A stretch of 64,000 nt of DNA from Trichobilharzia szidati (taxonomy: Eukaryota; Platyhelminthes; Trematoda; Strigeidida; Schistosomatidae), in contig OX235271.1 of assembly GCA_944472155.2 (NCBI GenBank), forward strand, positions 84,767,256-84,831,255. The letters run 5' to 3'. The stretch's first letter is position 1. The number at the start of each line of letters is the position of its first letter. Of this stretch, positions 7,075-60,779 are shown piece after piece. The position numbers and the translations under genes were made by a program. The notes under the pieces are model-generated. The model made no database searches and was not told the origin of the DNA. It saw nothing but the letters and a program-made list of their open reading frames with translations.

Positions 7075-7590
7075 CATGGTAAACTTTCCTAGGAGCAAAG
7101 AGAGTGTTTCCAAAGATTCGTCATTAAAACTCTAAGTTTTAGGTAACGGTTACGTAATACAGAATCTAAATCTACAATTAAATGGAGACATAGGCAGAAA
7201 TACTAAGGAACCAGTTGTCCCATCCATTGAAGAAAACCTTATTTGCAGCTGAACTTTGACTCACTTTTGTATTAAATCAGCGATATGCACGAACGTGAAA
7301 GATAAACTACCGCTACTGGCCCCATCACTGTGCATCTATCAGTTCACCTGCTCTAGTGAAGCTTGGTATGTTGAGCGTACTCAACGTCTACCATCCAAAC
7401 GTATCATCGAATATTTATCCTCATGGTTTTATAGTGGAGGAAAAAATATCCTGGAACATTAATCCTAGACACCCAAAAAACCTGCAAATCACCTGCAGAA
7501 TCATCGAAAGAATGGGTGGAAATCTTACCGAAGGTGTACAAATCAAACTTCTTCATACCACAGAAGCAATGGCAGTATACATACTTTGAC
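7075..7590 (+). mobile_element. Penelope-like element, GIY-YIG fragment
   Basis: 7256-7462 encodes DKLPLLAPSLCIYQFTCSS then AWYVERTQRLPSKR, the start of the GIY-YIG domain where C-x-Y-x-F-x-C and Y-x-G-R-T are usual. The G of YxG is lost (YVER). Overlapping frame 7356-7589 carries the C-terminal piece, so a frameshift splits the domain. Confidence 0.7.
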
Positions 7591-7594
7591 TGGA

Positions 7595-7935
7595 CACTAG
7601 TAACTAACTAGTGTGATGTGCCTAGCCTTTTGTTTGGTGCAGACTGAATTCTCTCAGTCAGGTTTGCAGTGTGGCCACCATTATAGGTAGCTCGCCATCA
7701 CGATGCACATTGATTTGATGATATTAGATGGTTGGAGGAAATCGGCAGGAAGTCTTGCTTGAACTGGGTTTCGTCCTAACTGGCACTCACCAGTCAGCAA
7801 GGCGTAGCTGCAACCTTAAAGGAACTCATATACCTTCTGAGATTCTAAATTGCATCACCCATTGTTGCAGTCATAGACGTTACCACTGAACTGTTTGGAC
7901 TTGTGACTGACCACCTGTATGACTGTATTGGATGA
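7595..7935 (-). repeat. F2 tRNA-like/hammerhead element with its flanking unit
   Basis: Ribozyme and pol III orientation is minus. The right part (about 7860-7935) is the complement of a tRNA-like A/B-box region. The left part holds the ribozyme-derived CTGGGTTTCGTCC complement, ending at TAGATGGTTGGAGG. A preceding GACACTAGTAACTA segment recurs near 45000 and 50040. The core is mutated. Confidence 0.7.
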
Positions 7936-7936
7936 G

Positions 7937-8036
7937 TTCCTTAAAATTTGCAGATAACCCCTGGCTGATGAGTGCGAACTAGCACGGAATCTAGGTCTAA
8001 GGCTTCCTGCCGATCGCCTTCAACCATCTAATATCA
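7937..8036 (+). repeat. F2 hammerhead fragment, inverted partner
   Basis: CTGATGA at about 7967 is followed by GTGCGAACTAGCAC, a perfect 4-bp stem II with a 6-nt loop. But GAA is mutated to GGA, so the core is likely inactive. It ends in CAACCATCTAATA and forms a head-to-head pair with the preceding copy. Confidence 0.75.
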
Positions 8037-8336
8037 CAAAGGCAATATATATGTCAAATCCCAAACTCTACACACAGAAGAGGTTTGTTCAATCACTGAA
8101 GCTAGAATGGGCCTAATCTATTGCAACATTGGATTTGTAAATTTTGTTAATCCTAAGTTTTTAGTCTTTTAATTATGTTATTCTCGTCTACTCTCTATGA
8201 CAGTGATCCTTACTTGGCTATCTCTTTCTCTCTCAATTTTAGTTAAGTTCTGCTCAGTCCCGTCAGTTATATTACGTCACTCAGTTTACTAACTTGACTT
8301 TTCTATAGTTGGTTTGTAAGTATTAGATTTGTTTTT

Positions 8337-8487
8337 ACGAGTTGATCACGGACTGATATCAGTTAGAGAACCCAAGTGGGTGCGTACTGCCGATGATTCC
8401 CAATCTAGGAGGCGGAAACTGCTGTCCAGTACTCCCAGCTGGTTTTCAATGGTTCACTAACTGATATCAATCCGTGATCAACTCATA
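8337..8487 (+). repeat. F1-derived 151-bp miniature with terminal inverted repeats
   Basis: The ends are inverted repeats of about 34 bp (GAGTTGATCACGGACTGATA against its complement). The middle is the F1 ribozyme region with CCGATGA and GTCCAGTACTCCC. U4 of the core is changed. It resembles the 876-1132 fold-back with its tRNA part deleted. Confidence 0.75.
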
Positions 8488-9590: not shown

Positions 9591-9610
9591 ATGAAATAAT
9601 TCGTTGCATG

Positions 9611-10050
9611 ATTTCATCATGAAATGGCATTGGTTAGAGGAACATTGGAAAACCTTGGAACACTGGACAGCTGTTTAGTCAGCCTAGCTTGGGATTTGTC
9701 GTCAGTACGCACCCACAGTGTGGGGTTCAAACCCACGACCTTCTAGTTACAAGGCGAGCTCGTAGACCATTAAGCCACTGGGATTCGCTCAAATGGCCAA
9801 CTTCTACCAATTCATGACACAGCATGACCACTAGCCAGTGTATTTATCCTCACAACAGACCTTCTGGGATCCCATTGGTTTAAGAGTTCATTAGCTAGCT
9901 TACCTCGTAACCAGATGGCCCGAGTTTGAACCATGGGGGTGGGCAAGTGCCAATGAAGAGTCCCAAACTGGGACGAAACAGCTATGCTGTAATCCCAGGT
10001 TTTCAAGTTGTTCTGTAACCGATGTCAACTCATGATGAAATCCTGTAACC
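9611..10050. repeat. F1 head-to-head inverted pair
   Basis: The minus copy (9611-9861) and plus copy (9862-10050) meet within the tRNA-upstream part. Both outer ends carry GATTTCATCATG or its complement. The plus copy has GAGTCCCAAACTGGGACGAA, a stem II with a lengthened pairing, but CTGAAGA has become ATGAAGA. Confidence 0.8.
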
Positions 10051-10159
10051 AATTAGTCAATTCCGGACAAACCAATACTTGAATAAAATAATTCACTGAG
10101 CGTACAAAAGATTGGAACAGCTGCACACTTAACGATTCACCCAAGGGAAAAAGACTGGA

Positions 10160-12130: not shown

Positions 12131-12959
12131 ATTTATATAGTGATGTGATAAATACACTCGTCTCGAATGCTGAAGACCAATAACATAATTATAGTGATCC
12201 CTTAGACAGATACATATAAACAGTGTTAAAGCAACCAAGGGAGAATGAACGAGTGACATTGTTACTTTAACCGGAAGAAAAGCCAGTTTTCTATTCGTTT
12301 CATGGAGTTCATAAAATACAGTAACAGCTAAAATTTTGTATACAAATGGCAATACAGTAATATCCAGGTGATTATCAATCAAGTGAATTATATAATTTTG
12401 TGTAGATTGCTGAGGTGGCAATTTTATTCCACATTGGTATAATACCTTCATTCTGTTATATTATTTTGAAGAATTCTTACTAGTTCTGTGATAAGAGTGT
12501 AACTTTCATAAATACAAAGAGATGGAGATGAACTTCTGGCTAATCTGAGATTTCGTCTGGACATTCTGGACCTTCACTTCCTTAAATTTATTGGTATAAT
12601 CTCTCCATAGGACATACTCTTTAGTGTGGAGAATACTGGAGAATAATGTTGACGAACCAAAAAGATTACCACAGTACTTAACTAAGAATTCTGAGTGTTT
12701 TTAACAATCACGTGTCGACAACAAGTGGTACAAAGAAGGTGACTGTGAGCCTAATTAGTGCTGGTTGGAAATAATCTCACCATTAGAACTGTAGTCAGCT
12801 TGCAGCATTGTAACAAATAAATAGTTTATTTTCAGCGAACGCAGTCAGCACTTCTGGATATTATCAGTTTCAAGTAATAATTTATTTTAACTTCACTGTC
12901 TACTTATAAGTAGTTACTTTCAATGAATACGCATTTCTTTCGCATGATAGTCCGTTACA
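12131..12959. other. unassigned stretch
   Basis: No recognisable feature. Confidence 0.4.
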
Positions 12960-13390
12960 AGTTAGATCATCAACTGACTTTAGTTAGAGAACCACTGAAA
13001 ACCAGAGAGTACTAGATAAATGTTTCGTCTTAGATTCTCTAGCTATACACCATTATTGGTCTTACCAGAGACCAAACCTAGGACTTTTGGGTTACAAAGA
13101 GAGAGAGTCCATTGACCATTCAACCATTGGGATGGATTCGAATTGTTGATAGTTCAACAAATGCTAGCCGATGGCATTGGTTGGCAGTTGCACTAAATGT
13201 CTCAAATTGGTAGAATTTAGAATTCACACACCATCGGCTCGCTTCGTAACCTGAAAGTTTCGTATTCTATCCACGATAAGGTGCGTACTGTGAAGTGTTC
13301 CAGCCATCCATAACCTCCAGTATCTCTATCTAATTGATGCCAGTTCCTGATAATTCTTGAAATCAGTCAAATCCCTGCAGATCAACACCT
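12960..13390. repeat. F1 inverted pair, diverged
   Basis: A minus copy at about 12960-13150 (AGTTAGAGAACCACTGAAAA start, TTTCGTC complement of the ribozyme GAA) and a plus copy at about 13195-13390 (CGTAACCTGAAAGTTTCG, GTGCGTACTG). Ribozyme sequence in the plus copy is largely deleted. Confidence 0.65.
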
Positions 13391-18181: not shown

Positions 18182-18197
18182 CTGTTAATTCCTTCTT

Positions 18198-18392
18198 TTG
18201 ATTGGATGGAGGATTTCATCATGAGCTGACACTCGCCCACCGGGGTGGGTGCGTACTGCCAAAGAGTTCCAAACTAAGACGAAACAGCTGTCCAGTACTC
18301 CCTTCAGGTTTTCCAATGGTTCTCTAACTGATGTCAGCACCTCTATCCAACCAAACAAAATCCCTAAAAAACCAATACTTGGGAATTCCTTC
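18198..18392 (+). repeat. F1 copy with fold-back 5' end
   Basis: A short inverted tail piece (GGATTTCATCATGAGCTGAC) is followed by GGTGCGTACTG, a mutated core CCAAAGA, GACGAAACAGCTGTCCAGTA and the F1 tail to CCAATACTTGG. Confidence 0.75.
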
Positions 18393-19115: not shown

Positions 19116-19371
19116 GTGAGTCATTTGAAGTTATTCATGATATAATGATTTCTTTTTTAACAAATTTATTTTATAGGTACCTCCTAGTGAAATCATATCA
19201 TCAATTGACACATAAACACACCTACCTGCTAACAGTAAAAACCTTGATTGTGTGTTTTTCTCTAATAAAAACATTTTTATTTAAGCAGGAAAGCGTCGAT
19301 TGGGGCACGGGGCGTCAGTGTGTTATAAAGAAACCGCTACATTCCATTTATCCTTCTTTATATAAAACAAA

Positions 19372-20009
19372 ATGGAACATGACAGGGATAGATCAAATCT
19401 ACCGCCGTCTGTGATTTGTTTAAATCGACCAAAATATATTTATAGTAATCTGAGTATGAGTACAGAAGACTATCAATATCATGGAGGTGCTTATCATAAC
19501 CACCACCATGATAATGACGATGATGATCTTAGGAATTATACTGTCATTAAAAGAAAGCCTTCCGATTATCAGCATTATTATATACCAATTCATACGGACA
19601 GACAGAATAGCTACACAGAATCAATGGTCATCAATTCCCCACAAAAAGATTATGAATATCCACTCAGTGAGAGACAAGCGAATAGTGCTCATTACAAATC
19701 GACAAAATCTTCTCCATCCTACTATTATATTGATCCAACTCCACAGTATAAGCTGTCTACATCGAATAAATGGGATACTGAGTACACTTCAACTGGAGGA
19801 CTAGAGAGGAATGAGACTAAGAGTTATGACTATCATAACAATGCGGAACAGAATGGTGATCATCATCATCATCAGTCGTTTATTCGAGATATCAGTAATC
19901 GAAGATCCTCGAGAAGATCTGCAAGAATTACAGAACTTGTAAATTTATTTAGTAAAAACTTTGATGAAGAGAATAAACACAATACTCATGGGGTTAATTA
20001 TAAAAACAG
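19372..20009 (+). CDS. SVIL: supervillin-like gene, exon 1 (probable first coding exon)
   Basis: The ATG at 19372 sits in a good context (ACAAAATGG) just after an in-frame stop at 19363. TATA-like TTATAAAG and TATATAAAA lie shortly upstream, so this can be an alternative first exon. A second in-frame ATG lies at 19456. It encodes about 212 residues, low-complexity and polar, with His/Asp-rich runs (HNHHHDNDDDD, DHHHHH), many Tyr, and a basic end RRSSRRSARITELVNLFSKN. No globular domain is visible, as expected for the disordered N-terminus of supervillins. The donor GTAAATG follows the AG of a split Arg codon, and the phase matches exon 2 exactly. Membership of this exon is inferred from phase, strand and composition. 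Confidence 0.7.
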
Positions 20010-20357
20010 GTAAATGTTGGAACGATTTAATCTGTTTGACATTATTCAACATCATAATATGCGCTTATATATTTAACTGGAGTGTTTGAATAATCAATAT
20101 GTAAAGTTAACAAATAAGGTCACAGCGAGGCAAGAGCATCTAATTACGTTTACAATTATTATTGATTTCTTGTGTTCTATGACGAATGTAGGGGTTCCGC
20201 AGTACATCTTCACTGCATTCGGTTCACTTATGCCTAGCTCCACAAATACCCTTTTATTCACATGATTTTGGACTATTTCACCCTCTAATGCTCAGCTTAT
20301 CGCTTCCGATTCAACTTCCACTTGACGATCAGGTTTTTGTGAAGTAATTTGAATACT
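20010..20357. other. intron 1 start, nothing recognised
   Basis: AT-rich intronic sequence with no repeat or exon recognised. Confidence 0.4.
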
Positions 20358-23413: not shown

Positions 23414-23810
23414 ACATTCTACCACAATGCCCAACTTCTACACACTAACAAGACATCACATTCGAATGTTAAAGTTGATTAGTCATAAACTGTTACTCAG
23501 CACAAATCTACATTGTGGTGAGGTTGAAGAATAGTGACCTAAGTGCATGAAGGATGTTCAGGTGGCTAATTAAATCTTTCATTGGTAATGACGATGTTTA
23601 CTGTTAATAATGAACGCTTTTCAGCATTAACAGAAAGATATCATTTGGGTAAGTGGCCTAATCAATAATTCCCAACTTTAAATTTAACCTGAACCTAATC
23701 TTATCGTATCCATAAACTTCAGCTTATCACTCTATACAGTAGTCATTTGAATGAATACTGACACTCACATGCATAGCTGACAGTTATTCTTGCAGTTTAT
23801 GATAGTAGAT
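23414..23810. other. intron 1, unassigned
   Basis: No feature recognised. Confidence 0.4.
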
Positions 23811-23882
23811 GGTTGGAGGCAATTGGCAGGAAGCCTTGCTGGAACTAGGTTTACTTATAAAGCGTGGTGGATAGCCATTCTG
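23811..23882 (-). repeat. F2 end fragment
   Basis: TAGATGGTTGGAGGCAATTG, GCAGGAAGCC and GGAACTAGG match the ribozyme-side end of F2. The rest is absent. Confidence 0.7.
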
Positions 23883-26189: not shown

Positions 26190-26960
26190 TAGCGTCCCAG
26201 GTATGAACGCACGAGTGACCTTCAGCCGACCAATCATAAAAATGTGGAATGTTTGCTCAAAAAAATGACGTATATTGACAAGAAAATGCTTGAAAAAGCA
26301 TTAGGCAGGTTATCTTTCTCTGACATGGCTTTAAAATACGTCCTCGTTATGACGAGGAATATCAGTTGCTAAGTTAGACTAGTTTCTGTACATGTATTCA
26401 CCGAGATGACTACAGATAAAGTGGTTTTATGAATCGTTTATCTCTCTCATCCTGCTTGCAGTCTTCCAAAAAAGCCCTCGGTTGAATTATTATGGTTTCC
26501 AGCAAGAGGGTAGAAGACTACTTACCAGGAAAACGTGGATAATAAAAAATTAAAATCAATGATATCCACTATAAATCTATCCCTAATCGTAACCATAAGC
26601 TTAATCCTGACCCTAACACTAACCTAACCTTAATCTTAACTCTAATCATAACCTTTGTTCAAACCGTGATTCTAACCCTAATGCTAATTATAACCTTGAT
26701 CCTAACCCTAATAGCAATACTTACCTTAGCCCTAATCCTAACCCTAACGAGCTATTAACACATTGTCCAAACAGTAGTTGAAAACGTGATCTGGGTGAAA
26801 TTTGCTCCTAAGTTGGTGAATAGCCTTGATATTTCAGCTATGATAATAACAGATGCTGTTAGCCAACGACTAGCATGCGTTCAAGGCCATTGGAGCGTTC
26901 ACACTCCAGGGACGCTATTGTTGAATTTTTCCAAACAAGTAATATCAGTTTAACAATGAA
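26190..26960. repeat. F5 element, larger copy with telomere-like block
   Basis: A short F5 start (GAACGCACGAGTGACC) lies at about 26205. From 26475 a longer copy runs with CCCTAACACTAACC-type units at about 26580-26755, then GGTGAAATTTGCTCC and GCATGCGTTCAAGGCC. It is the inverse of 37685-38060. Confidence 0.7.
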
Positions 26961-27867: not shown

Positions 27868-28019
27868 GTAAGTGATGGTTTCTTATTTATTGGAAAACAT
27901 ACCCATAAGCTAAATCGTTGTGGCCAACTTCTATATTATTATTATTATTGTTATTATCACCAAGACAAACATCCTGCATATTCTTATTAATAGTAATTTC
28001 AAGAATGATACGTACTGAC

Positions 28020-28330
28020 ATATAGGTTACAGAACCATTGAAAACCAGTACGGAAGTACTGGACATCTGCTGCGCCCTTGTGTTGGACTCATCAGTAGTA
28101 GGCACCAAGACTCGGGACCTTCAGTATCCGAATGAGCTATGAGCTCGCATGAAGGTCCTGGGTTCTACCCCTGGTAGTATTATGGGTGTGCACTGAGAGG
28201 AGTACCAAGGAAGTACGAAGTAGCTATACAGTACTCTAATACTGGTTTCTAAGGATTATGTAAATGAAGTCAGTTTACAATCACTATTGAAATCAATCAG
28301 ATCCCCTCAAGTTTTCAACATTTGAAATTC
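28020..28330. repeat. F1 head-to-head inverted pair in intron 2
   Basis: The minus copy (about 28020-28140) contains the complement of CTGATGAGTCC. The plus copy (about 28140-28330) has GAAGGTCCTGGGTTCTACCC and a decayed ribozyme. It starts 150 bp after the exon 2 donor. Confidence 0.7.
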
Positions 28331-34600: not shown

Positions 34601-35085
34601 AGTTCAGTGCAAAGCATACGGAAGCTTACCGTTTTCGGCAGGCTTCTTTTGATTTTGTAGATGACTTTGAATGAATTCGTCTTGCACATTCATTGAGTGA
34701 CCAATGTTGAATATATGTTCAATTGTAGCACTCCTTATTGATCCACTGCTACGTTTTCGTAGCCAAGTGAGATAATGTTTTTTGACTGCTTTAGATAAAA
34801 CATGTTCCGAACGTCCTTTATATCTCGCTCCATATGAGCAAGTAAATTGACAGCTACACATAGAAGTGGTCAGATGCGATAGTTTATCTTTTGAGTTGTT
34901 GAAGAACAATTGGCGGCTTGGGAATATGAGTCGTAATGTAGGAGCAGAGAAAGTTGCTTTCAGGGCGTTAGATATTTTTCTCTTTAGGATGGCGGCTAGA
35001 AGGTCACCTTTGAACGCCACATTGATGTATGGCATCTTCTTCGACATAGAGCTGCGTTGTTGTTTGTTGATTTTCGGCCTAATGT
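34601..35085 (-). mobile_element. Penelope-like element, GIY-YIG domain fragment
   Basis: The uninterrupted 147-codon minus frame (34604-35047) has PYINVAFKGDLLAAILKRKI, a linker, the MCSCQFTCSYGARYKGRSE domain start (YIG has become YKG), HYLTWLRKRSSGSIRSATIE and HIFNIGH. The catalytic-motif Ile is lost, but spacing and the downstream His are kept. It is one of the longest open PLE stretches here. Confidence 0.85.
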
Positions 35086-35448
35086 GAATCTATGAAGCGT
35101 GGTGGATAAGCATTCTCTTCAAATGACTGATTCGACTTACTACTATGTCAGTAATGCTTTTTTTATGAATTTTTTTATGAATTCTTAGTAACATGTTTTT
35201 CTTAACCAGCCCTTTGTTTACTCTTTCTACCTATTACGCAAATATTTATTTTGAACACGTTTCTTCATGCTCTTTCATTCACATTCTATTTTTCTGGGTG
35301 TCTTTCATATTACGCAACTTAACCCTTATCTATACTTTTCAGTCTTCATCCCACTCCTACACGCCAATTACAATTTGATTATTCCTCACAGTTTTGGAAT
35401 ATTTTGATGACGTAAACAATAAATAAGCCTAACTAATCTCTATTTGTG
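35086..35448. other. intron 3, unassigned
   Basis: T-rich sequence; nothing recognised. Confidence 0.4.
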
Positions 35449-35660
35449 GTATTAGGTGGTTGGAGGCAATCGGCAGGAAACCTTGGACCTAGGTTTCGTG
35501 CTAGTTGGCGCTCATCAGCAAGGTGTATCTGCAACCTTGAAGGGACTGATGTCCCTTCTGAGATTCGAACCCGCGTCACCCAGTGCTATAGTCAGAGACG
35601 TTACCACTGAGCTGTTCAGCCTCGCGACTGACCTCTTGTAGGACTGTATTGGATATCTTT
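35449..35660 (-). repeat. F2 tRNA-like/hammerhead element, structurally complete ribozyme
   Basis: Read on minus: a tRNA-like part (A-box-like AGCTCAGTGGTAACGTC, B-box-like GGGTTCGAATCTC, about 35565-35615) leads to a hammerhead at 35480-35524, then CTGCCGATTGCCTCCAACCA. Direct pol III transcription would run from tRNA part to ribozyme. Confidence 0.85.
35480..35524 (-). ncRNA. hammerhead ribozyme, F2 type, canonical core
   Basis: On the minus strand: helix I ACCTTG (35519-35524) pairs perfectly with CAAGGT (35480-35485). The core CTGATGA is at 35512-35518. Stem II is GCGC...GCAC with a CAACTA loop and one C-A mismatch. GAA is at 35495-35497. Stem III is the self-complementary ACCTAGGT (35487-35494), C17 is at 35486, and cleavage is expected after it. 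The very short stem III would favour paired (dimeric) hammerheads in a multimeric transcript. Activity is inferred from structure. Confidence 0.75.
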
Positions 35661-35769
35661 GTTTGATGGCCCTAAAGTACACACACACACAATAATTTTA
35701 TATAAATTTGACTGTACAGTCAAAAAGAGACTCTTCACTGGACCTTTTTGATCTTAGATTCTATATTGT

Positions 35770-40384: not shown

Positions 40385-40895
40385 ACCAAGGGAGTGAGAG
40401 GTTAATAACACTCTCTTTCTGTATGCATAAGTCTGGTTGGTTTGAATCGTTCGATTGCGATCTCTTCGGCAAATCGTAGTAAATTTGCTGTCCTTTGTCT
40501 ATTTGATATTTTGAAGGACTTAGAAATCTCTATGAGATGTCCGGTATCAGCAATATGTCTGGTAATTGCACTCTGAGAATATTTGCTTCCTTTCAGGCAC
40601 AAGTTTCTTGGAATATGTTCAGAAAATCGGATAGAAGCCCTGCTTTTCGTCCTTCCAATGTACTTGCTCCCGCAAGTGCACATAAATTCATAAACACAGT
40701 TAGAGGTGACATCAGTGGGGTATTTATCCAGTTTCGACTGGCCTTTAACAGAAGTGGTGCTGTATAATGTTATGAGTTTAGCTACAGGGAAGCTTCTTTT
40801 CATTGCATCTTTCAGTCTTTTGTCAATCTTTTGTGACACTGCATCTCCTTTGAATGGGAGTGAAATAAACACTTCCTTTTTTTCCACAACTGTCT
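40385..40895 (-). mobile_element. Penelope-like element, GIY-YIG domain, open reading frame
   Basis: A 161-codon uninterrupted minus frame (40402-40887): VFISLPFKGDAVSQKIDKRL, linker, CVYEFMCTCGSKYIGRTKSR, IRFSEHIPRNLCLKG, SAITRHIADTGHLIEI and ISNRQRTANLLRFAEEIAIE. The GIY-YIG signature residues (Y-I-G, R, H) and the C-x-C pair are present. It is the best preserved endonuclease half here. It lacks the polymerase, so it is not autonomous. Confidence 0.9.
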
Positions 40896-40914
40896 TATCT
40901 TTTTCTCTACTATA

Positions 40915-41560
40915 CTTTTGTATTAGACAATTACTGAATGAAAATGGATATGCAGGAAAGTTTGTTCATAAAAATTTGAATTTACCGCGAAGTCAAGCCA
41001 GTGTGTCTACAGCTCCGAAGAATCTCTTACACCTTATTGAGAACATCAGTGAAATAGTAACAAAACGCTTAAGGAATGCACTAAAAGGAGCATTCAGTGT
41101 AGTAGGAGTAAATTGTCCCTTTACAACCACTCTAATTTTATTTTTCTCAAATAAGGATGAACTACTTAATTTCTCCGCCTCAGTTTGATTGCTTCTGTGG
41201 AACCAGTTACATTAGGCATACAATTAGATATGTTCATCCACGAATTTATCAACATCATCCTGTCATAATTAAGCAAGTGATGGACAAAGTCATTTCGTAG
41301 CTGTGTTTTAGCCTACCTCGTAAATACTGAACATTAAGCGGATGTTAATGTGGCATTCAAAGTTATCTATCGTATTCCGACTGATCTTAATTATGTCTGA
41401 CAAGTTCATCTTTTATATGCATCTGAAGCCGTTGGAATCCACCTCAAGGAACTAATGTGTTAAGAAGAAGTTCCTCTAGACGCTTTTTTTACCTTGGATA
41501 TCAATATCTGATTGTAATAATCTGACAATATCTCCTTCTGTCTAAGCCTTTTACAAACAG
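40915..41560 (+). mobile_element. Penelope-like element, linker and GIY-YIG fragment
   Basis: RQLLNENGYAGKFVHKNLNL, then VSTAPKNLLHLIENISEIVT and LRNALKGAFSVVG match the PLE linker. After frame breaks CFCGTSYIRHT is a mutated GIY-YIG start (YIR). It may be the other half of the plus copy at 39630, split by the minus insertion. Confidence 0.75.
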
Positions 41561-43439: not shown

Positions 43440-43645
43440 ACGTACGGTAGTGAGTGGTGACTGTCAGTGGAATCCAGGATGTGTGTTTCGTCTTATCTGA
43501 GACTCATCAACCGGATGTACTGGATGCATTCCCCAGTAAGTGATGGTGTTCCCACTAATACTCGAAATCAGCACTATTCATCCATACAAGGAGCCAGTAT
43601 CTTGGCAAGTGTTGGACATTTCTGTCTAATCAACCAATGGGAGAA
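43440..43645 (-). repeat. F3 Sm-alpha-like element
   Basis: The complement reads ATCCGG, TTGATGA, GTCTCAGATAAGAC, GAAACACACATC, CTGGAT. Helix I and stem II pair well, but C3 of the core has become T. It is 150 bp after the exon 4 donor. Confidence 0.75.
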
Positions 43646-43934
43646 TCAGAAGTGACTTAGAAAAGAATAAAACTTGTAATCCACACTGCTGTTAGCAAAC
43701 TGTAAAGGTGTCATGAAACTAGGTTGGGTTTGCGCAAATCACTTCCTTCCTCACTTTAATTATTTTCAAGTTTAATTAATTGTTTTTCTTTAATTATAGG
43801 AACAAACTATTTTGCACGATTTAAAGTAAATCGCTAGGGGAAAATGTTTGGGCATAAATGTCACATGAAACTAATTGACAGTTGAATAAGATGAATATTT
43901 ATTTATTTATTATAATAATAATATTATTATTCTG

Positions 43935-44816: not shown

Positions 44817-44867
44817 AGTTCCTTGTTACTTATCTTGTCCGACTAGCTATCTGATCGTGCTTATTTT

Positions 44868-45150
44868 AGATGGTTGGAGGCAGTCAGCAGGAATCCCTGG
44901 GGCTAGGTTTCATGCTTTTTGCCACTCATCAGTCAGTAAGGTTTATCACTGAGTTATTCAGGCTTGCGATTGACATCCTGTAGAAGACTATATTAGATAA
45001 TTCTATTGGACACTAGGAACTGAGTAAATAATGCCATGCGTTTAATCCTTTATTTGTTGCACGGTGATGACTGACAAGCCATTTGCCATGGTGGCTACAT
45101 TGAAACGATGACTGATGGAATTCAGTCTGCATGACACTAGTTACTTATTA
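44868..45150 (-). repeat. F2 element, internally deleted, with flanking unit
   Basis: TAGATGGTTGGAGGCAGTCA and GGGGCTAGGTTTCATGC are the ribozyme end, with CTGATGA on the complement but no helix I. The tRNA part is mostly deleted. The GACACTAGGAACTGAGTAA unit follows. Confidence 0.65.
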
Positions 45151-46374: not shown

Positions 46375-46990
46375 TTTGTTCATCTTGAAGTGAATTGGTG
46401 GATGATGACTAGCAGTGGAATCCAGGATGCGCATTTTGTCCTATTCGGGACTCGTCAAGTGGATGTACCTGCACTCCTCAGTGAGTGGTGGTGTTCCAAC
46501 CGAGGCTCGAACTCAATGCCCATAATTTCAAACGACAAGGTGTACTCCACTAAACCACTTGGGCTACGAGAGCCACCTGTTGTGGAACGCGTCTTATTAA
46601 TTATTTAATTTAATTTAGATTCTCTCATCGATTGATTGGACCGAAGTGCTCGGTCTCAGGTTGACGTGTCCGCACCTGGTGAAAATGCTTAAATGATGTC
46701 TGGACATGTAAATTGAAGTCTATTGGTGGACGGTGACGCCTTGACGTTCAAAACTACGGGTACTGGGTTCGAGCCTCGGTGGGAACACCATCACTCTCAA
46801 AGGGGAATGCAGGTGCACGCAACTGACGAGTCCCAAATAGGACGAAATACGCATCCTGGATTCCACTGCTAGTCATCATCAACCAATTGACTTCAAGTTA
46901 CATGACCGGATATCGTCGAAGCATCTGTACAAGGAACCAACATATCAACCGGAGACTGAGCATTTCTGTCCAGTTAACTGATGAGAAAAT
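46375..46990. repeat. F3 Sm-alpha-like inverted pair
   Basis: The minus copy (46375-46580) and plus copy (about 46600-46990) are head to head. The plus copy has a tRNA-like part (GGGTACTGGGTTCGAGCCTC, about 46755) and hammerhead pieces: CTGACGA at 46823, stem II GTCCCAAATAGGAC, GAA, ATACGCATC, CTGGATTCCACTGCTAG. Helix I is not closed in this copy. The complement of the minus copy has TTGACGA. Confidence 0.8.
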
Positions 46991-47654
46991 TTAAATGGAA
47001 TTAAATATATGTTCATCCGTTTATCTCATTTTCGCTAGTCCCAAAATACCATTTGTACTTCCCCCTCTCCAGGCCTTTGCTATTTACTATGCTCTGATAA
47101 GAGACATCTGTTTTATTTCAAATCAACAGATGTACTTTGCAGTACATTTAATATTATTATTACTATCATTCTTATTTTTTTACTTAATAAGAACTATATA
47201 AGTTGCATACATTGCTGATATCTTGGAATAATTACACATTTTTTTATCAAGATGTTAATGACTGTGTATATATACATAGCATTCATGTTGTATACAGTTC
47301 CTAATTATTTTAATTATCATTTTATTTTTTAATGTCTGAGTAAAAGAGAAGATAAGAAACTGTAAAATATCAAGTCATTCAAAATACTCTATTCGATGGT
47401 CTTGATACTGTACCAAGAAGTAGCTAGTTTCACTGTCTGTATTCATCTAACAGGGAACTTCTTAGATAACTTTCATAGGTATATTGCTCATAGGCTAGTT
47501 ATATTTTAGATTCTAAAATTTACTTCATGAATAATCCCCATCCAGGCATTGTAATGAAAACAAAACACGTAGTAGTTCAGCGAAGAGTCTCTTTTCGGCG
47601 GCGAATTCATTTTCTTAGCTACACAATCGCAATTATATATATATATGATTGCAT
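46991..47654. other. intron 4, unassigned
   Basis: AT-rich; nothing recognised. Confidence 0.4.
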
Positions 47655-47936
47655 GAAGGATTTCATCATGAGCTGACATCAGTTACGGAACCACTGGAAA
47701 CCTGGGAGTAATGGACAGCTGTTTCGTTCTAGTTTGGGACTCTTCAGCGGTACGCACCAACCGGGATTTGAGCACAGGACCTTCTGCTTACAAGGCAAGC
47801 TCGTAGACCATTAAACCACTAGGACCCGATCCAGTACTCCCAGGTTTTCCAGTGGTTCTCTAACTGATGTCAGCTCATGATGGAATCCTCCATGAAATCA
47901 AACAAAATCCCTACAAAACCAATACTTGAAAAAATA
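47655..47936. repeat. F1 fold-back: full minus copy then 3' part in plus
   Basis: The minus copy 47655-47828 includes a hammerhead-like region (47707-47756, complement core CTGAAGA, stem II GTCC/GAAC with one mismatch, GAA, ACAGCTGTCC). Plus segment 47829-47936 begins at the cleavage-site sequence CCAGTACTCCC and ends CCAATACTTGAAAA. Confidence 0.85.
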
Positions 47937-49450: not shown

Positions 49451-49815
49451 CTGATAATGATTCACTGAATTCAAATCTAGTGGACGAATCCTGTTCTGTT
49501 TGGTAGACAATTTCACAATTCTGGATAGTATGTTGTGTTGAATTGTAAAGAATTCAAAGAAAATATTGTTAAGGTGTTATTAATGGTGTAAAGTCATCTA
49601 ATACAGTGTATAACTCTTGAAGTAGAAAGTGTTATCTGGAACTATAAATTCGTCTGAATGATGAAGTGGCTATGACGAGTGACCTATCTGATAAATGATT
49701 TACAAAGCAAACTTAAAGCAATACAAGTAAGCAAACAATATAGTGTTTTCGGTCAGATCACATCAGGGTTTACACTAATATACATAACTTTAAAAATATA
49801 TGTGAAATATTATTG

Positions 49816-50110
49816 GTATTAGATGGTTGGAGGCAATCAGCAGAAAGCCTTAGACCTAGGTTTCGTGATAGTTGGCATTCACCAGGTAGTGAGGCGTATC
49901 TGCAACCTCGAAGGAACTCATGTCCCTTCTGAGAATTCGAACTTGCGTCATCCAGTGCTGCAGTCAGATACGTTACTACTGAGCTATTTGGGGTTAGCGA
50001 TTGACCTCCTGTAGGACTTCTTCGGATACTTTAATTCGACACTAGTCACTAGATAGAGTGATATGTCTAGTCCTATCTTTGGTGCAAACTGAATTCTATC
50101 AGTCAAGTTT
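49816..50110 (-). repeat. F2 element with flanking unit
   Basis: The complement of the ribozyme has core CTGGTGA (A6 changed). The tRNA-like half with A/B-box complements lies at 49925-50000, followed by the GACACTAGTCACTAGATAG unit. Confidence 0.75.
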
Positions 50111-54794: not shown

Positions 54795-55710
54795 GTGAAT
54801 AAAGCAAGAACAACAGTGGTTTGTGCAGAATAATATGGTGCCATCATTGTTTATTTTGTTGGCTTCTCATCAGCTGCCTACAGCCCAAAGACATTATTAA
54901 GTATATCTACAGAGTTCATTTAAAAAAATCAATATATGCATACAATGCTAGTTATAATTATAACTGCTTTATCTCAAACAATAATGATCATACACACGAT
55001 GGAATCTTTCGGCATTACGTAATCAAATGAGAGAGAGGATGAAAACATCCATTTACCAGGACAAGGAAAGATTAATAACCTCTTCTTTCTGAACGAATAT
55101 AACGTGTTTCAAGCGCTTGATGGAGATTGCTTCAGCAAACTTAAGGAGAATTGAACTCTTTTGCCTATAGATAACTTTAAAAGATCTTGCGACGTCCACC
55201 TCATGATCCGTGTCAAGGAGATGCCTGGTGATGACACTGTTGAAAGCATTTGTTCCCTTTACACATAGGCTTTTCAGTATATGTTCAGAAAATCGGAGGT
55301 ATGTCCTTCTTTCTGTTCTCCCAATGTAACTGCTCCCGTTCGACAGGCAGGAACCAGCTTTAGCTGCAAGACAGGCTCTGCTTAGTGATGTAATTGATTT
55401 TTTGTTGACAATCGCTGTAATATTTTCACCTATAAAATCAAGTTGAACGAAGATGGGCGTTTTTCCCACTGTGATTTGCTTGACATTTGAGCCTTCAGAT
55501 CTTCCGTACTTGTTAATAAACCTTTGGGGGGGGGGGTTAACCGTTGTTCCTCAACATCTTTTCGAGATATTCTTTCTGTGGATAAACTTAATAATGTATT
55601 TGGGCTGTGCGCAGCTGAGATGATGAGAAGCCAACGAAATAAACAATGATGGTACCATTTTATTCTGCAAAAACAAATGTTGTTCTTGCTTTATTCAAAG
55701 CTTAACTTTC
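54795..55710 (-). mobile_element. Penelope-like element with inverted terminal repeats (pLTR-like) and GIY-YIG frame
   Basis: GAATAAAGCAAGAACAAC begins the left end (about 54797), and its inverse GTTGTTCTTGCTTTATTC ends the right (about 55687-55704). Both arms carry a hammerhead-like CTGATGAGAAGCC region. Inside, the minus frame 55053-55469 encodes FIGENITAIVNKKSITSLSR, SYIGRTERRTYLRFSEHILK and SVITRHLLDTDHEVDV, an intact GIY-YIG core with a short internal deletion before it. Left ribozyme: G12 changed to A. Right ribozyme: five-base insertion in the core. Confidence 0.8.
55526..55537. repeat. poly-G run
   Basis: A run of nine or more G inside the PLE at 54795-55710. Unusual in this AT-rich DNA. 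Confidence 0.7.
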
Positions 55711-56634
55711 TGAGGGTTTGTTAAATATAACCATACCAAGTTTATTGTCTAATATAAGTTGTCGTTTTCCTTCTGGTCATAGTTTTTCCTAGTCTGATTT
55801 TGTGTCTGTCGTAGTGTGGGAGATATTTTTAAGTGGGTATAGCGTCGCCTTCTGGAGACACATTTTTGTGAAGTTACACAAAAACCACAACCCAGCTTGT
55901 ACTCTGTCATAACAGTGTGATAAAAGCATTTTACATATAATTCGGAGTAATCTGACGGGTATTCCTGTCGATGTCAAGTTTTCTGGAATACGTACTCACC
56001 TTGCATAATCTTCAAATTGTCAACTCAGTTGATTTCAGATACTTGGTTAGTTAGTAAGAATGTTTAATAAACTCGATTTTAACTACTAAAGAGTTAAACC
56101 TGAGGATGAAATGACAGTGTACAAGTTTTTACTATTTCTACTGTCTGATACCAACTGTTTACATACTCAGTCCTGATATTGATAATAATCTCGACAAACA
56201 GAACATCCTTATGTACAGATAATCTTCAATCGGTTTCTGGATAGTTGCAATGAACACAGACAGTACTTATTCTGCTGGAAAATTAAGCGTTACACCTTCA
56301 GATAAAGATTTCATCATTGATACTAACAGAAAATTTGATGGTATTGGCATAAAAAAAGGAACTTACAGAACACTTGATGCCGATTATCACCTAAGTTGGC
56401 TTAAATATTGTTTCTACAAATTCGGTTTTAAGAATATTGAGATCACTTTTGAGGATAAAGTATTTTGAAGAGAGAAAGAACGAACATGTTTGCAGGATAA
56501 TACGAGCTCGTTTTATTTCGTGGATACTCATCAACTGCATAAATCCTAAACAAAATCAAATTATAAGTTTCAAAAAAGTTTTGGAACATACCTTTTCATA
56601 ATTTTTTGGAGTTATTTATAAACATATTGATTAT
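55711..56634. other. intron 6, unassigned with a 72-codon frame
   Basis: Frame 56250-56468 (+) encodes SDKDFIIDTNRKFDGIGIKK and YHLSWLKYCFYKFGFKNIEI, a composition typical of a folded protein. I recognise no family and see no splice borders. Confidence 0.4.
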
Positions 56635-56955
56635 TTAATTGGTGGATGATGACTAGCAGTGGAATCCAAGGAGCACATTTCGTCCTATTTGAGACTCGTC
56701 ATCTGAATGTACCTACATCCCCAGTGAGTGATGTTCCCACCGAGGCTCCAACCCAGTGCCCGTAGTTTCAAGCGCCAGATGACGAGTCCCAAATAGGACG
56801 AAGTGTGCATCCTGGATTCCACTGCTAGTCACCATCCACCAATTTAATTCTGACTACATGCCCAGACATCGTCGAAGCATCTGCACAAGAAGCCGATATG
56901 CCAACCTGAGACCAAGCACTTCGGTCCAATCAATCGACGGGAAAATTTGAAATTC
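56635..56955. repeat. F3 Sm-alpha-like inverted pair next to exon 7
   Basis: The minus copy (56635-56770) and plus copy (56775-56955) meet inside the ribozyme upstream region. Both cores read ATGACGA, so C3 is changed. Stem II GTCCCAAATAGGAC is intact in the plus copy. The right end is about 35 bp before the exon 7 acceptor. Confidence 0.8.
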
Positions 56956-56989
56956 AATTAAATATTGATTATTTATTTATTTCTTGCAG

Positions 56990-59545: not shown

Positions 59546-60394
59546 ATTCATATAGGAGGATAAATGTAAGAAATTTTCTTTCTTCCTATACTTTCTTCTT
59601 TATTTTATGATTTGTGATTATCATAACTTCAATCAGTTAATGAGTGGCAATTAAAATACTTCAAAGTTTTCATCTTATTACTAATGTGTGTGTGTTTGTG
59701 TGCAAAAATGGTTTTCACTTTACTATTTCTCTTTCTAAGTTTAATTAGAAGCGCTTATTTTCTTATTTATTTTAGCTATGATATAGATGTTGTTTACCTC
59801 CATAGTCACCTTTCGACTTATTCATCTAAAATTTGAAGAAAAGCTCTTCCTTTTTAAGCTTAAGCTCTTCCTTTTTACATGTTGTACGAATCTCTTTTTA
59901 TTGCTTTAAGCAGCATTTCAGTTCTTAATTAGACAGTATATTTCCAAGGGGGAGGGGTGTGTGTGTGCTGGTCGGGGATGGATCCACACGGAGCATATTT
60001 TACATACTGAAAATGAACAGTCAACAAACTTATCATTTAATTGGAGAGAAATCTAAATCTCTTCAATCCTTACTTTTGGATATATATAAAAGTTAACATA
60101 GTAATAACATCAGTTTACTTCAGAAATGTATTTTAGACAATCAGTTTTGCCTGTCTATGTACAATAGGTAGTATATACAGTATAACAAAATAGGATTTTA
60201 TGTCCTAAACACTGATTAGTGATAAGTGCAAGCAATGAGCATTATAACCTATGCTTCAGTAAATCTGTATATCGCGATGATAAAATTATTAGTCAATCAC
60301 AGAAGCTATGTAGTTGATTTAATTAGGATTATTATCATTTGAAGGGAATCGAGTCTTTCTCTCATTACCTCATTGTTTATGATTGTAAACAGAT
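59546..60394. other. intron 7, unassigned
   Basis: Includes a GTGTGTGTGTTTGTGTG tract near 59685. A tandem AAGCTCTTCCTTTTTA repeat lies at about 59841-59880. No coding feature. Confidence 0.45.
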
Positions 60395-60486
60395 TGGTTG
60401 CAGATACGCCTTGCTGACGAGTGCCAACTAACACGAAACCTAGGTCCAAGGCTTCCTGCCGATTGCCTCCAGCCATCTAATACCAA
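60395..60486 (+). repeat. F2 ribozyme-side fragment with complete hammerhead
   Basis: Truncated upstream of the ribozyme at TTGCAGATACG. It ends CCAGCCATCTAATACC, the usual F2 end. No tRNA-like part. Confidence 0.85.
60408..60452 (+). ncRNA. hammerhead ribozyme, F2 type
   Basis: Helix I GCCTTG (60408-60413) pairs perfectly with CAAGGC (60447-60452). Core CTGACGA is at 60414-60420 (position 7 is free). Stem II GTG/CAC (60421-60434) has a fourth C-A mismatch. GAA is at 60435-60437. Stem III is self-complementary ACCTAGGT, C17 is at 60446. All invariant core bases are kept. The absence of the upstream promoter half makes independent transcription unlikely; it sits sense in intron 7. Confidence 0.75.
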
Positions 60487-60779
60487 GGATTGTAAACATT
60501 TGTGAAAAAGATATATACAAAAACAGGGAGTTTAGAGAGGAGGTTCTATTTAGCGACTTCAGTCGCATTCATATATATACAGTTGTTTTCTGAAAAATAG
60601 AATGGCAATGAAAGAGATGAACTAGTGTAGACGTAGTTCCTAATATTCATAAATACATAAGAGAAGTTGAATTAGGTACTTGATGAGATAAATTATTTAT
60701 TCAATGAGTTGCAGTCAGTACAAATGAATTCGAAAGAATGGAAGAGTTATAAAAGTTACTAGGATAGTAGAAATGACTG

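Follow-up and report, generated by a model that had tools for sequence, protein, structure and literature searches.

In Schistosoma mansoni, about 38,500 hammerhead ribozyme candidates have been reported (PMC2770079). Among the described elements closest to the locus considered here are the SINE-like Sm-alpha and Sj-alpha of Schistosoma (W36.2 in S. mansoni), which, like the F2 family described below, have a type I hammerhead and A and B boxes and occur as tandem and dispersed copies (PMC8490949; PMC2576457). The metazoan non-LTR retrozymes of coral, mussel and axolotl also carry a type I hammerhead, in tandem units of 150-450 bp whose RNA is highly self-paired (PMC7229834). The way in which such elements are inserted may hint at the enzyme that moves animal retrozymes. 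The authors of the retrozyme work regard Penelope-like elements as a strong candidate, since both kinds of element have hammerheads and tandem copies and they occur together (PMC7229834). In published Penelope inserts the 5' side carries an inverted copy, and a single short duplication encloses the entire insert; head-to-head is the most frequent of the inverted arrangements, and self-priming on an antisense template is the explanation favoured in that paper (PMC3846280). In vitro, a Penelope-like protein was found to extend the two target strands and to begin reverse transcription at internal positions, and hammerhead cleavage is not needed for the insertion of a Penelope-like element (PMC11167929). 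Penelope-like reverse transcriptase sequences are present in Trichobilharzia szidati (PMC4465651), a bird blood fluke of the Schistosomatidae that is very probably the host of the elements described here.

The window, the 64-kb stretch of DNA analysed here, lies on C1 of the 1.11-Gb assembly. At 60396-60485 on the + strand it holds a 90-bp insertion that aligns to positions m256-m345 of the 345-bp F2 unit found in tandem arrays, with 2 mismatches in the 90 aligned bases (nhmmer gives 60394-60485). An exact 11-bp repeat, GATTGTAAACA, stands on either side on the + strand, at 60381-60391 (left) and 60488-60498 (right), and this length of duplication was reached by 0 of 150 random pairs. Because the unit alignment starts at m256 and the copy sits within an 11-bp duplication, it is a 5'-truncated insertion. 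It is very probably a retrotransposed copy of F2, an Sm-alpha-type, tRNA-like-SINE hammerhead retrozyme with the putative life cycle set out below. The ribozyme (recognised by a covariance model), the family structure, the arrays, the truncation, the duplication and the head-to-head inserts were all found directly in the analysis. Position m256, just 5' of the distal helix, is also where three copies elsewhere in the genome begin (L033, L041 and L043). Possibly this shared start reflects microhomology (GGTTG), four copies being few.

The initial annotation had placed a complete hammerhead at 60408-60452. A covariance-model search with Rfam RF00163 (Hammerhead_1) reaches exactly these limits on the + strand, as one of 9 matches in the window at or above the gathering score of 34 bits (40.5 bits, E 8e-7), and on reading the type I core is intact, with CUGACGA at 60414-60420 and GAA at 60435-60437. 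The perfect 6-bp helix I claimed for it was confirmed from the sequence (60408-60413 paired with 60447-60452), as was the palindromic 4-bp stem III, ACCU/AGGU (60438-60441/60442-60445). Sequence and RF00163 alignment together give an A60438-U60445 pair and put C17 at 60446. Hammerheads cut after C17, and partly on this general knowledge the cleavage site is predicted between 60446 and 60447 (+) in the RF00163 alignment, in agreement with the 5'-OH end at 60447 that the annotation had implied. Stem-loop II (GUGC-CAACUA-ACAC, 60421-60434, +) is less regular. In the RF00163 alignment its loop-closing C60424.A60431 is unpaired, which leaves 3 bp; the same AACAC occurs in the array unit taken from L049 and in L031, L040, L044 and L045. 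Helix I resumes on the far side of an internal loop as a distal helix, in which GCAG at 60400-60403 (+) pairs with CTGC at 60456-60459, and these four GCAG/CUGC pairs are invariant in a 6-copy alignment. Neither the unpaired C.A nor the distal helix figures in the initial annotation.

Stem III, ACCUAGGU at 60438-60445 (+), has no loop. Its own 4 bp cannot form on itself, whereas two copies pair over 8 bp in a dimer. In predicted folding, with energies that leave out loop contacts, two molecules of the 60408 copy reach their co-fold minimum of -38.6 kcal/mol (against 2 x -15.6) as the double hammerhead, whereas the hammerhead is not the preferred fold of the lone copy (-11.6 kcal/mol, its own minimum being -15.6). 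A relative with closed stem II gives -45.4 kcal/mol for the dimer, -17.5 for its own minimum and -15.0 for the hammerhead fold. The whole 345-nt F2 unit folds with a z-score of -4.84, and 0 of 100 shuffles were as good; strong folding is likewise predicted for published retrozyme circles. Is the lone copy then dead? It need not be, because most invertebrate retrozyme hammerheads are reported to cleave efficiently as monomers (PMC7229834), so that a dimer may not be needed, and because short-stem hammerheads from W elements of S. mansoni show in vitro cleavage (PMC8490949). For W25.2 and W36.2 variants, three of five tested S. mansoni candidates cleaved, the other two having disabling changes (PMC8490949). 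By inference, the lone 60408 copy would only be weaker.

The full F2 unit of 345 bp has Pol III-like A and B boxes (m178-193 and m221-230) followed by the hammerhead. No tRNA was found by ARAGORN over the 64-kb window. The GC content of the unit is 49.6%; that of retrozymes is given as below 50% in the Results and below 45% in a figure legend of the same paper (PMC7229834). A longer copy in the window (35445-35664, -; nhmmer 240.7 bits) retains the A box (AGCTCAGTGGTAA, 35601-35613) and B box (GGTTCGAATC, 35562-35571) upstream of its hammerhead at 35463-35536, where RF02275 scores 42.3 bits, under its gathering score of 52. Another longer copy, at 49812-50038 (-; nhmmer and alignment), has core A6 changed to G, and further copies were found by nhmmer at 23798-23853 and 44861-45009.

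Outside the window F2 also forms arrays. L049, a 2-kb stretch of C616, is a head-to-tail array with a period of 345 bp, five whole units that differ pairwise at 0-4 of 345 positions, and six hammerheads above the RF00163 gathering score. On C576 and C5, matches are spaced 345 and 341 bp apart and span about 6.7 kb (133638-140379) and about 17 kb (42778021-42795135), respectively (40 of 5009 first-look candidates scored). The W elements of S. mansoni lie on a sex chromosome, a location that the C5 and C576 arrays may or may not share. A genome search with 60392-60487 as the query, in which 40 of 2541 first-look candidates were scored, listed 42 matches. One is the 60408 copy itself and two are partial; the other 39 are 95-99% identical to the query along 85 or more of its 96 bases. 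Twenty stretches (among them L033, L043, L048 and L049) covering 22 of the 42 listed matches were chosen by similarity to the ribozyme. Among the 19 run against Rfam (all but L048), 17 reach the gathering score, and L033 and L043 have no RF00163 match at that level. Intactness in these stretches is no test of selection, since they were picked by ribozyme similarity. Of the 17 F2 rows that come from unselected sequence (the window plus twenty 10-kb stretches), 4 have both the core and A15.1-U16.1 intact. An older F2 subtype (L027:8383-8605, window 7717-7944 and others) has insertions on one or both helix I strands, CTGA on the 5' side and AAG or CAG on the 3' side, some copies having the 5' one only, and core A6 is G in several of its copies. 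Where both strands carry them, the insertions are no more than suggestive of a paired change.

The initial annotation had also raised the idea of a separate hammerhead SINE lineage. This is supported by features that set F2 apart as a family: a unit of 345 bp, boxes of Pol III-like kind, tandem arrays and first-look candidates that run into the thousands (2541 and 5009, 40 scored in each case). Two further families, F1 (Sm-alpha-like) and F3, follow the same plan of boxes, hammerhead and tail. None of 1000 mononucleotide shuffles reaches the similarity score between the F2 and F1 heads, although part of this likeness may come from the tRNA-like boxes. F2 is in look a sister lineage of F1 because their heads are similar. 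The F3 head has no demonstrable similarity to the F1 or F2 heads (246 of 1000 such shuffles reach the F2-F3 score), and the tails show none either (516 of 1000 shuffles for F2-F1, 902 of 1000 for F2-F3). The most frequent of the three families is F3, with 30 copies in the window; its hammerhead is like GTACTGCTGAAGAGT...CAGTAC and its tail contains GATGTCAGCTCATGATGAAATCC. In all, 47 hammerhead-element copies make up 14.4% of the window. The 20 unselected 10-kb stretches hold 67 copies (F1 5, F2 12, F3 50), or 6.0% of 200 kb, and Rfam finds four hammerheads above the gathering score in the 15 of them that were scanned. Extrapolated to the whole genome, these figures amount to about 370,000 copies of the elements and about 30,000 good ribozymes. 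One further repeat in the window, at 26577-26741, consists of tandem CTAACCCTAA-like units and is telomere-like in look.

What is new here is the frequency with which copies of F2 and of its sister families are inserted in head-to-head pairs. With gaps of at most 60 bp, 264 kb contains 17 head-to-head, 0 tail-to-tail and 2 tandem pairs of these families (in this order, 7/0/0 in the window and 10/0/2 in the 20 unselected stretches). With gaps of at most 120 bp the counts are 10/1/1 and 12/1/5. At another threshold the window gives 7/0/1 (at most 60 bp) and 11/1/2 (at most 120 bp). Among genome matches, pairs within 500 bp number 6/0/1 in one list of 74 places and 4/0/0 among the 42 listed for the 60392-60487 query. 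In 12 of the 20 stretches chosen by ribozyme similarity an inverted arm adjoins the plus arm within 5 bp, or in 10 of 18 once L047 and L048, which were picked as known pairs, are left aside. The literature search found no paper joining retrozymes with a head-to-head arrangement.

Seven F2 composites are wholly enclosed within their stretches (L032, L033, L037, L038, L041, L043 and L051), and in six of them one duplication of 12-15 bp surrounds the whole composite; L043 has none. If single copies are included and 60408 is left aside, there are 12 enclosed inserts, of which 7 show one duplication of 12-15 bp, and L042, L043, L044, L050 and L052 have 4-8 bp repeats only. At their outer ends, left arms stop at m135-145, after CAATCAAAAA, in six of the seven composites (m197 in L043), and right arms at m342-m2 in all seven; the query ended there too, though longer arms occur in L050 and L052. 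For the arms that cross m345/m1 (L032, L037, L041, L051, L050 and L052), the template must have been circular or have exceeded one unit in length.

The window itself contains similar loci. An F2 pair at 7585-8038 consists of a minus arm at about 7937-7717, continuing 3' to 7585, and a truncated plus arm at about 7938-8038 (nhmmer); no duplication was found around it, a wider try included. An F1 pair at 56633-56964 has a 14-bp repeat, ATATTGATTATTTA, at its ends. Altogether 5 of 11 head-to-head loci in the window have a duplication of at least 8 bp: 56633-56964 (14 bp), 18197-18381 (12 bp), 9601-10051 (10 bp), 869-1137 (10 bp) and 47646-47932 (8 bp, a length reached by 5 of 150 random pairs). 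At 7717-8038, 46602-47007, 12953-13370, 27994-28295, 8330-8487 and 43445-43658 there is none of at least 8 bp. Single copies in the window have one of at least 9 bp in 3 of 12 cases (60408, 62164 and 50647). Close inverted repeats, defined by arms of at least 40 bp and a spacer of at most 400 bp, number 25 in the 264 kb. Fifteen overlap hammerhead elements, wholly or in part, and the other ten do not, so that inverted pairs are enriched in these elements but not exclusive to them. One inverted repeat outside the hammerhead families, 58679-58917/59304-59546, has arms of about 240 bp with 84% identity.

How might such inserts arise? For the transcription, cleavage, RNA circles and enzyme of the F2 cycle we infer the following course. 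The 345-bp arrays or dispersed copies would be transcribed from Pol III-like signals or by read-through. Hammerheads would cut the tandem transcripts at GUC|C, helped by the palindromic stem III, which would let two copies pair with each other. Multimeric or circular RNA would then be reverse-transcribed at a staggered target cut, and both target strands would often be used in one event, to give a head-to-head insert inside one duplication. The reverse transcriptase would most likely be Penelope-like. Head-to-head arms within one duplication match the published Penelope insertion signature and, with the caution that the signature is not exclusive to Penelope, this likeness supports the idea that Penelope-like elements may move retrozymes. 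A fuller proposal is that schistosomatid hammerhead retrozymes are integrated by Penelope-like machinery, with cDNA primed from both strands of a staggered cut on multimeric or circular RNA and starting at two preferred unit sites, one after CAATCAAAAA (m135-145) and one after AATACCA (m345). We hold the case for it to be evenly balanced. If it is true, head-to-head inserts are the genomic record of such priming and the long-sought partner of metazoan retrozymes is identified. The signature, common to published Penelope inserts and present in very many copies in this genome, is directly testable. On the minus strand of the window, frames 34607-35089, 40405-40965 and 55056-55550 have similar cysteine-rich YIG-like stretches, perhaps the GIY-YIG endonuclease part of Penelope-like elements. 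Pfam did not confirm a GIY-YIG identity for the three frames. The protein encoded by 40405-40965 shares 77% identity with one of T. szidati and also matches one of T. regenti.

What if the enzyme is instead that of a LINE, acting by twin priming on tandem RNA? This is the most serious alternative, possible though on balance doubtful. The arms of L033, L038 and L043 do not overlap on the unit, as predicted for one RNA, and those of L032, L037 and L041 fit too if the RNA was multimeric. Left arms that end at m135-145 and right arms at m342-m2 are also what internal second priming would give. However, the arms of L048, and by 19 bases those of L051, overlap even on a multimer. In addition, it is for Penelope that head-to-head copies in one short duplication have been described (PMC3846280), and a Penelope-like enzyme that extends both target strands with internal starts in vitro (PMC11167929). 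A second possibility is that the inverted arms come from self-priming of a cDNA that folds back, which is how the palindromes at inverted Penelope junctions are explained in PMC3846280. The arms would then be expected to meet at the same unit position, but they do so in none of the seven enclosed composites. The junctions are thus not fold-backs of one cDNA, and this origin is improbable.

The arrays raise a different question, namely whether F2 is mainly a satellite spread by unequal exchange or circular DNA, with retrotransposition incidental. The near-identical arrays fit such a description: one of about 2 kb was seen on C616, and hits extend across some 6.7 kb of C576 and 17 kb of C5. Nevertheless, dispersed truncated copies with duplications of 11-15 bp need insertion at staggered cuts, and a mainly satellite nature is very improbable.

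The initial annotation had the 60408 copy lying sense in an intron and in principle able to cut the pre-mRNA, a placement that the searches given below did not verify. Has the copy acquired a function in a host gene? By this account it would cut the host pre-mRNA and alter its processing, as proposed for SmPoMuc and for amniote introns. A published precedent comes from the SmPoMuc genes of S. mansoni, whose introns contain hammerheads together with A and B boxes (PMC2576457); in addition, the core of the 60408 copy is intact and its + orientation is that of the recognised coding frame. That frame, 19366-20010 (+), shares 80% identity with a protein of Trichobilharzia regenti. It is the sole coding frame recognised on the + strand and lies 40 kb upstream of 60408. 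It ends in AGGTAAATG, which reads either as arginine-stop or as a splice donor, and the stop reading (stop at 20011-20013) parallels the T. regenti relative, so the coding frame may simply stop at 20010. With stops given as X, the + frames between about 14 and 64 kb had no Pfam match at E 0.01, and ten single ORFs of the window had only matches under the cut-offs; a protein search anchored on the 19366 frame, with a greater assumed length, found no match. The copy is also young, its 2 mismatches to the array unit giving no sign of long retention, and the C.A in stem II, the stem III without a partner and the weak monomer fold also speak against this account. Co-option is very improbable, a little more so even than a mainly satellite nature. 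Most likely the 60408 ribozyme is an ordinary passenger. As the copy has neither A and B boxes nor a tandem partner, it would cut a host transcript only weakly and incidentally, if at all.

Finally, the motif is short, and covariance support across family copies, which the initial annotation had looked to, did not rise above shuffles. In six window copies two pairs changed on both sides, a count reached by 143 of 500 shuffles. In 17 copies (20 alignment rows minus three without hammerhead letters) there were six cells with both-side change (508 of 2000 shuffles), four of them in helix I (127 of 2000 shuffles for helix I alone). Nevertheless, a chance resemblance can be dismissed, because the E-value of 8e-7 applies to the whole 64-kb window, because at least 39 other genome matches have the high identity to it given above (95-99%), and because 17 of the 19 relatives run against Rfam reach the gathering score.

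How, then, does F2 compare with known elements? The Sm-alpha unit is 333-335 bp (PMC8490949; PMC2576457) against 345 bp for F2, and F2 has another loop II, other stems II and III and another 3' part, as compared through F1 and the Rfam consensus. The distal GCAG/CUGC helix is common to F2 and to F1 copies in the window such as 46420 and 46817. The W25.2, W26.2 and W27.2 elements of S. mansoni (399-428 bp, type I hammerheads) occur, like F2, as tandem units and many partial dispersed copies (PMC8490949). Copies of 81-88 bp dominate in W25.2 (PMC8490949), near the 90 bp of 60396-60485. The F2 unit is shorter than these three, and the likeness is one of description only. With the metazoan retrozymes F2 shares head-to-tail units, its 345 bp falling within their range of 150-450 bp. 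Their duplications exceed 4 bp, the length in plant retrozymes (PMC7229834), and those of F2 are 11 bp at 60408 and 12-15 bp at seven of the twelve further inserts that are enclosed. F2 differs from them in its tRNA-like Pol III boxes and very short stem III, and its RNA circles are only putative. Penelope-like elements have a hammerhead in their pseudo-LTR region (PMC11167929) and insert as inverted head-to-head copies inside one duplication of 8-10 bp (PMC3846280), against 11-15 bp for F2. No protein-coding frame is expected in the 345-bp F2 unit, which could only borrow a Penelope-like enzyme.
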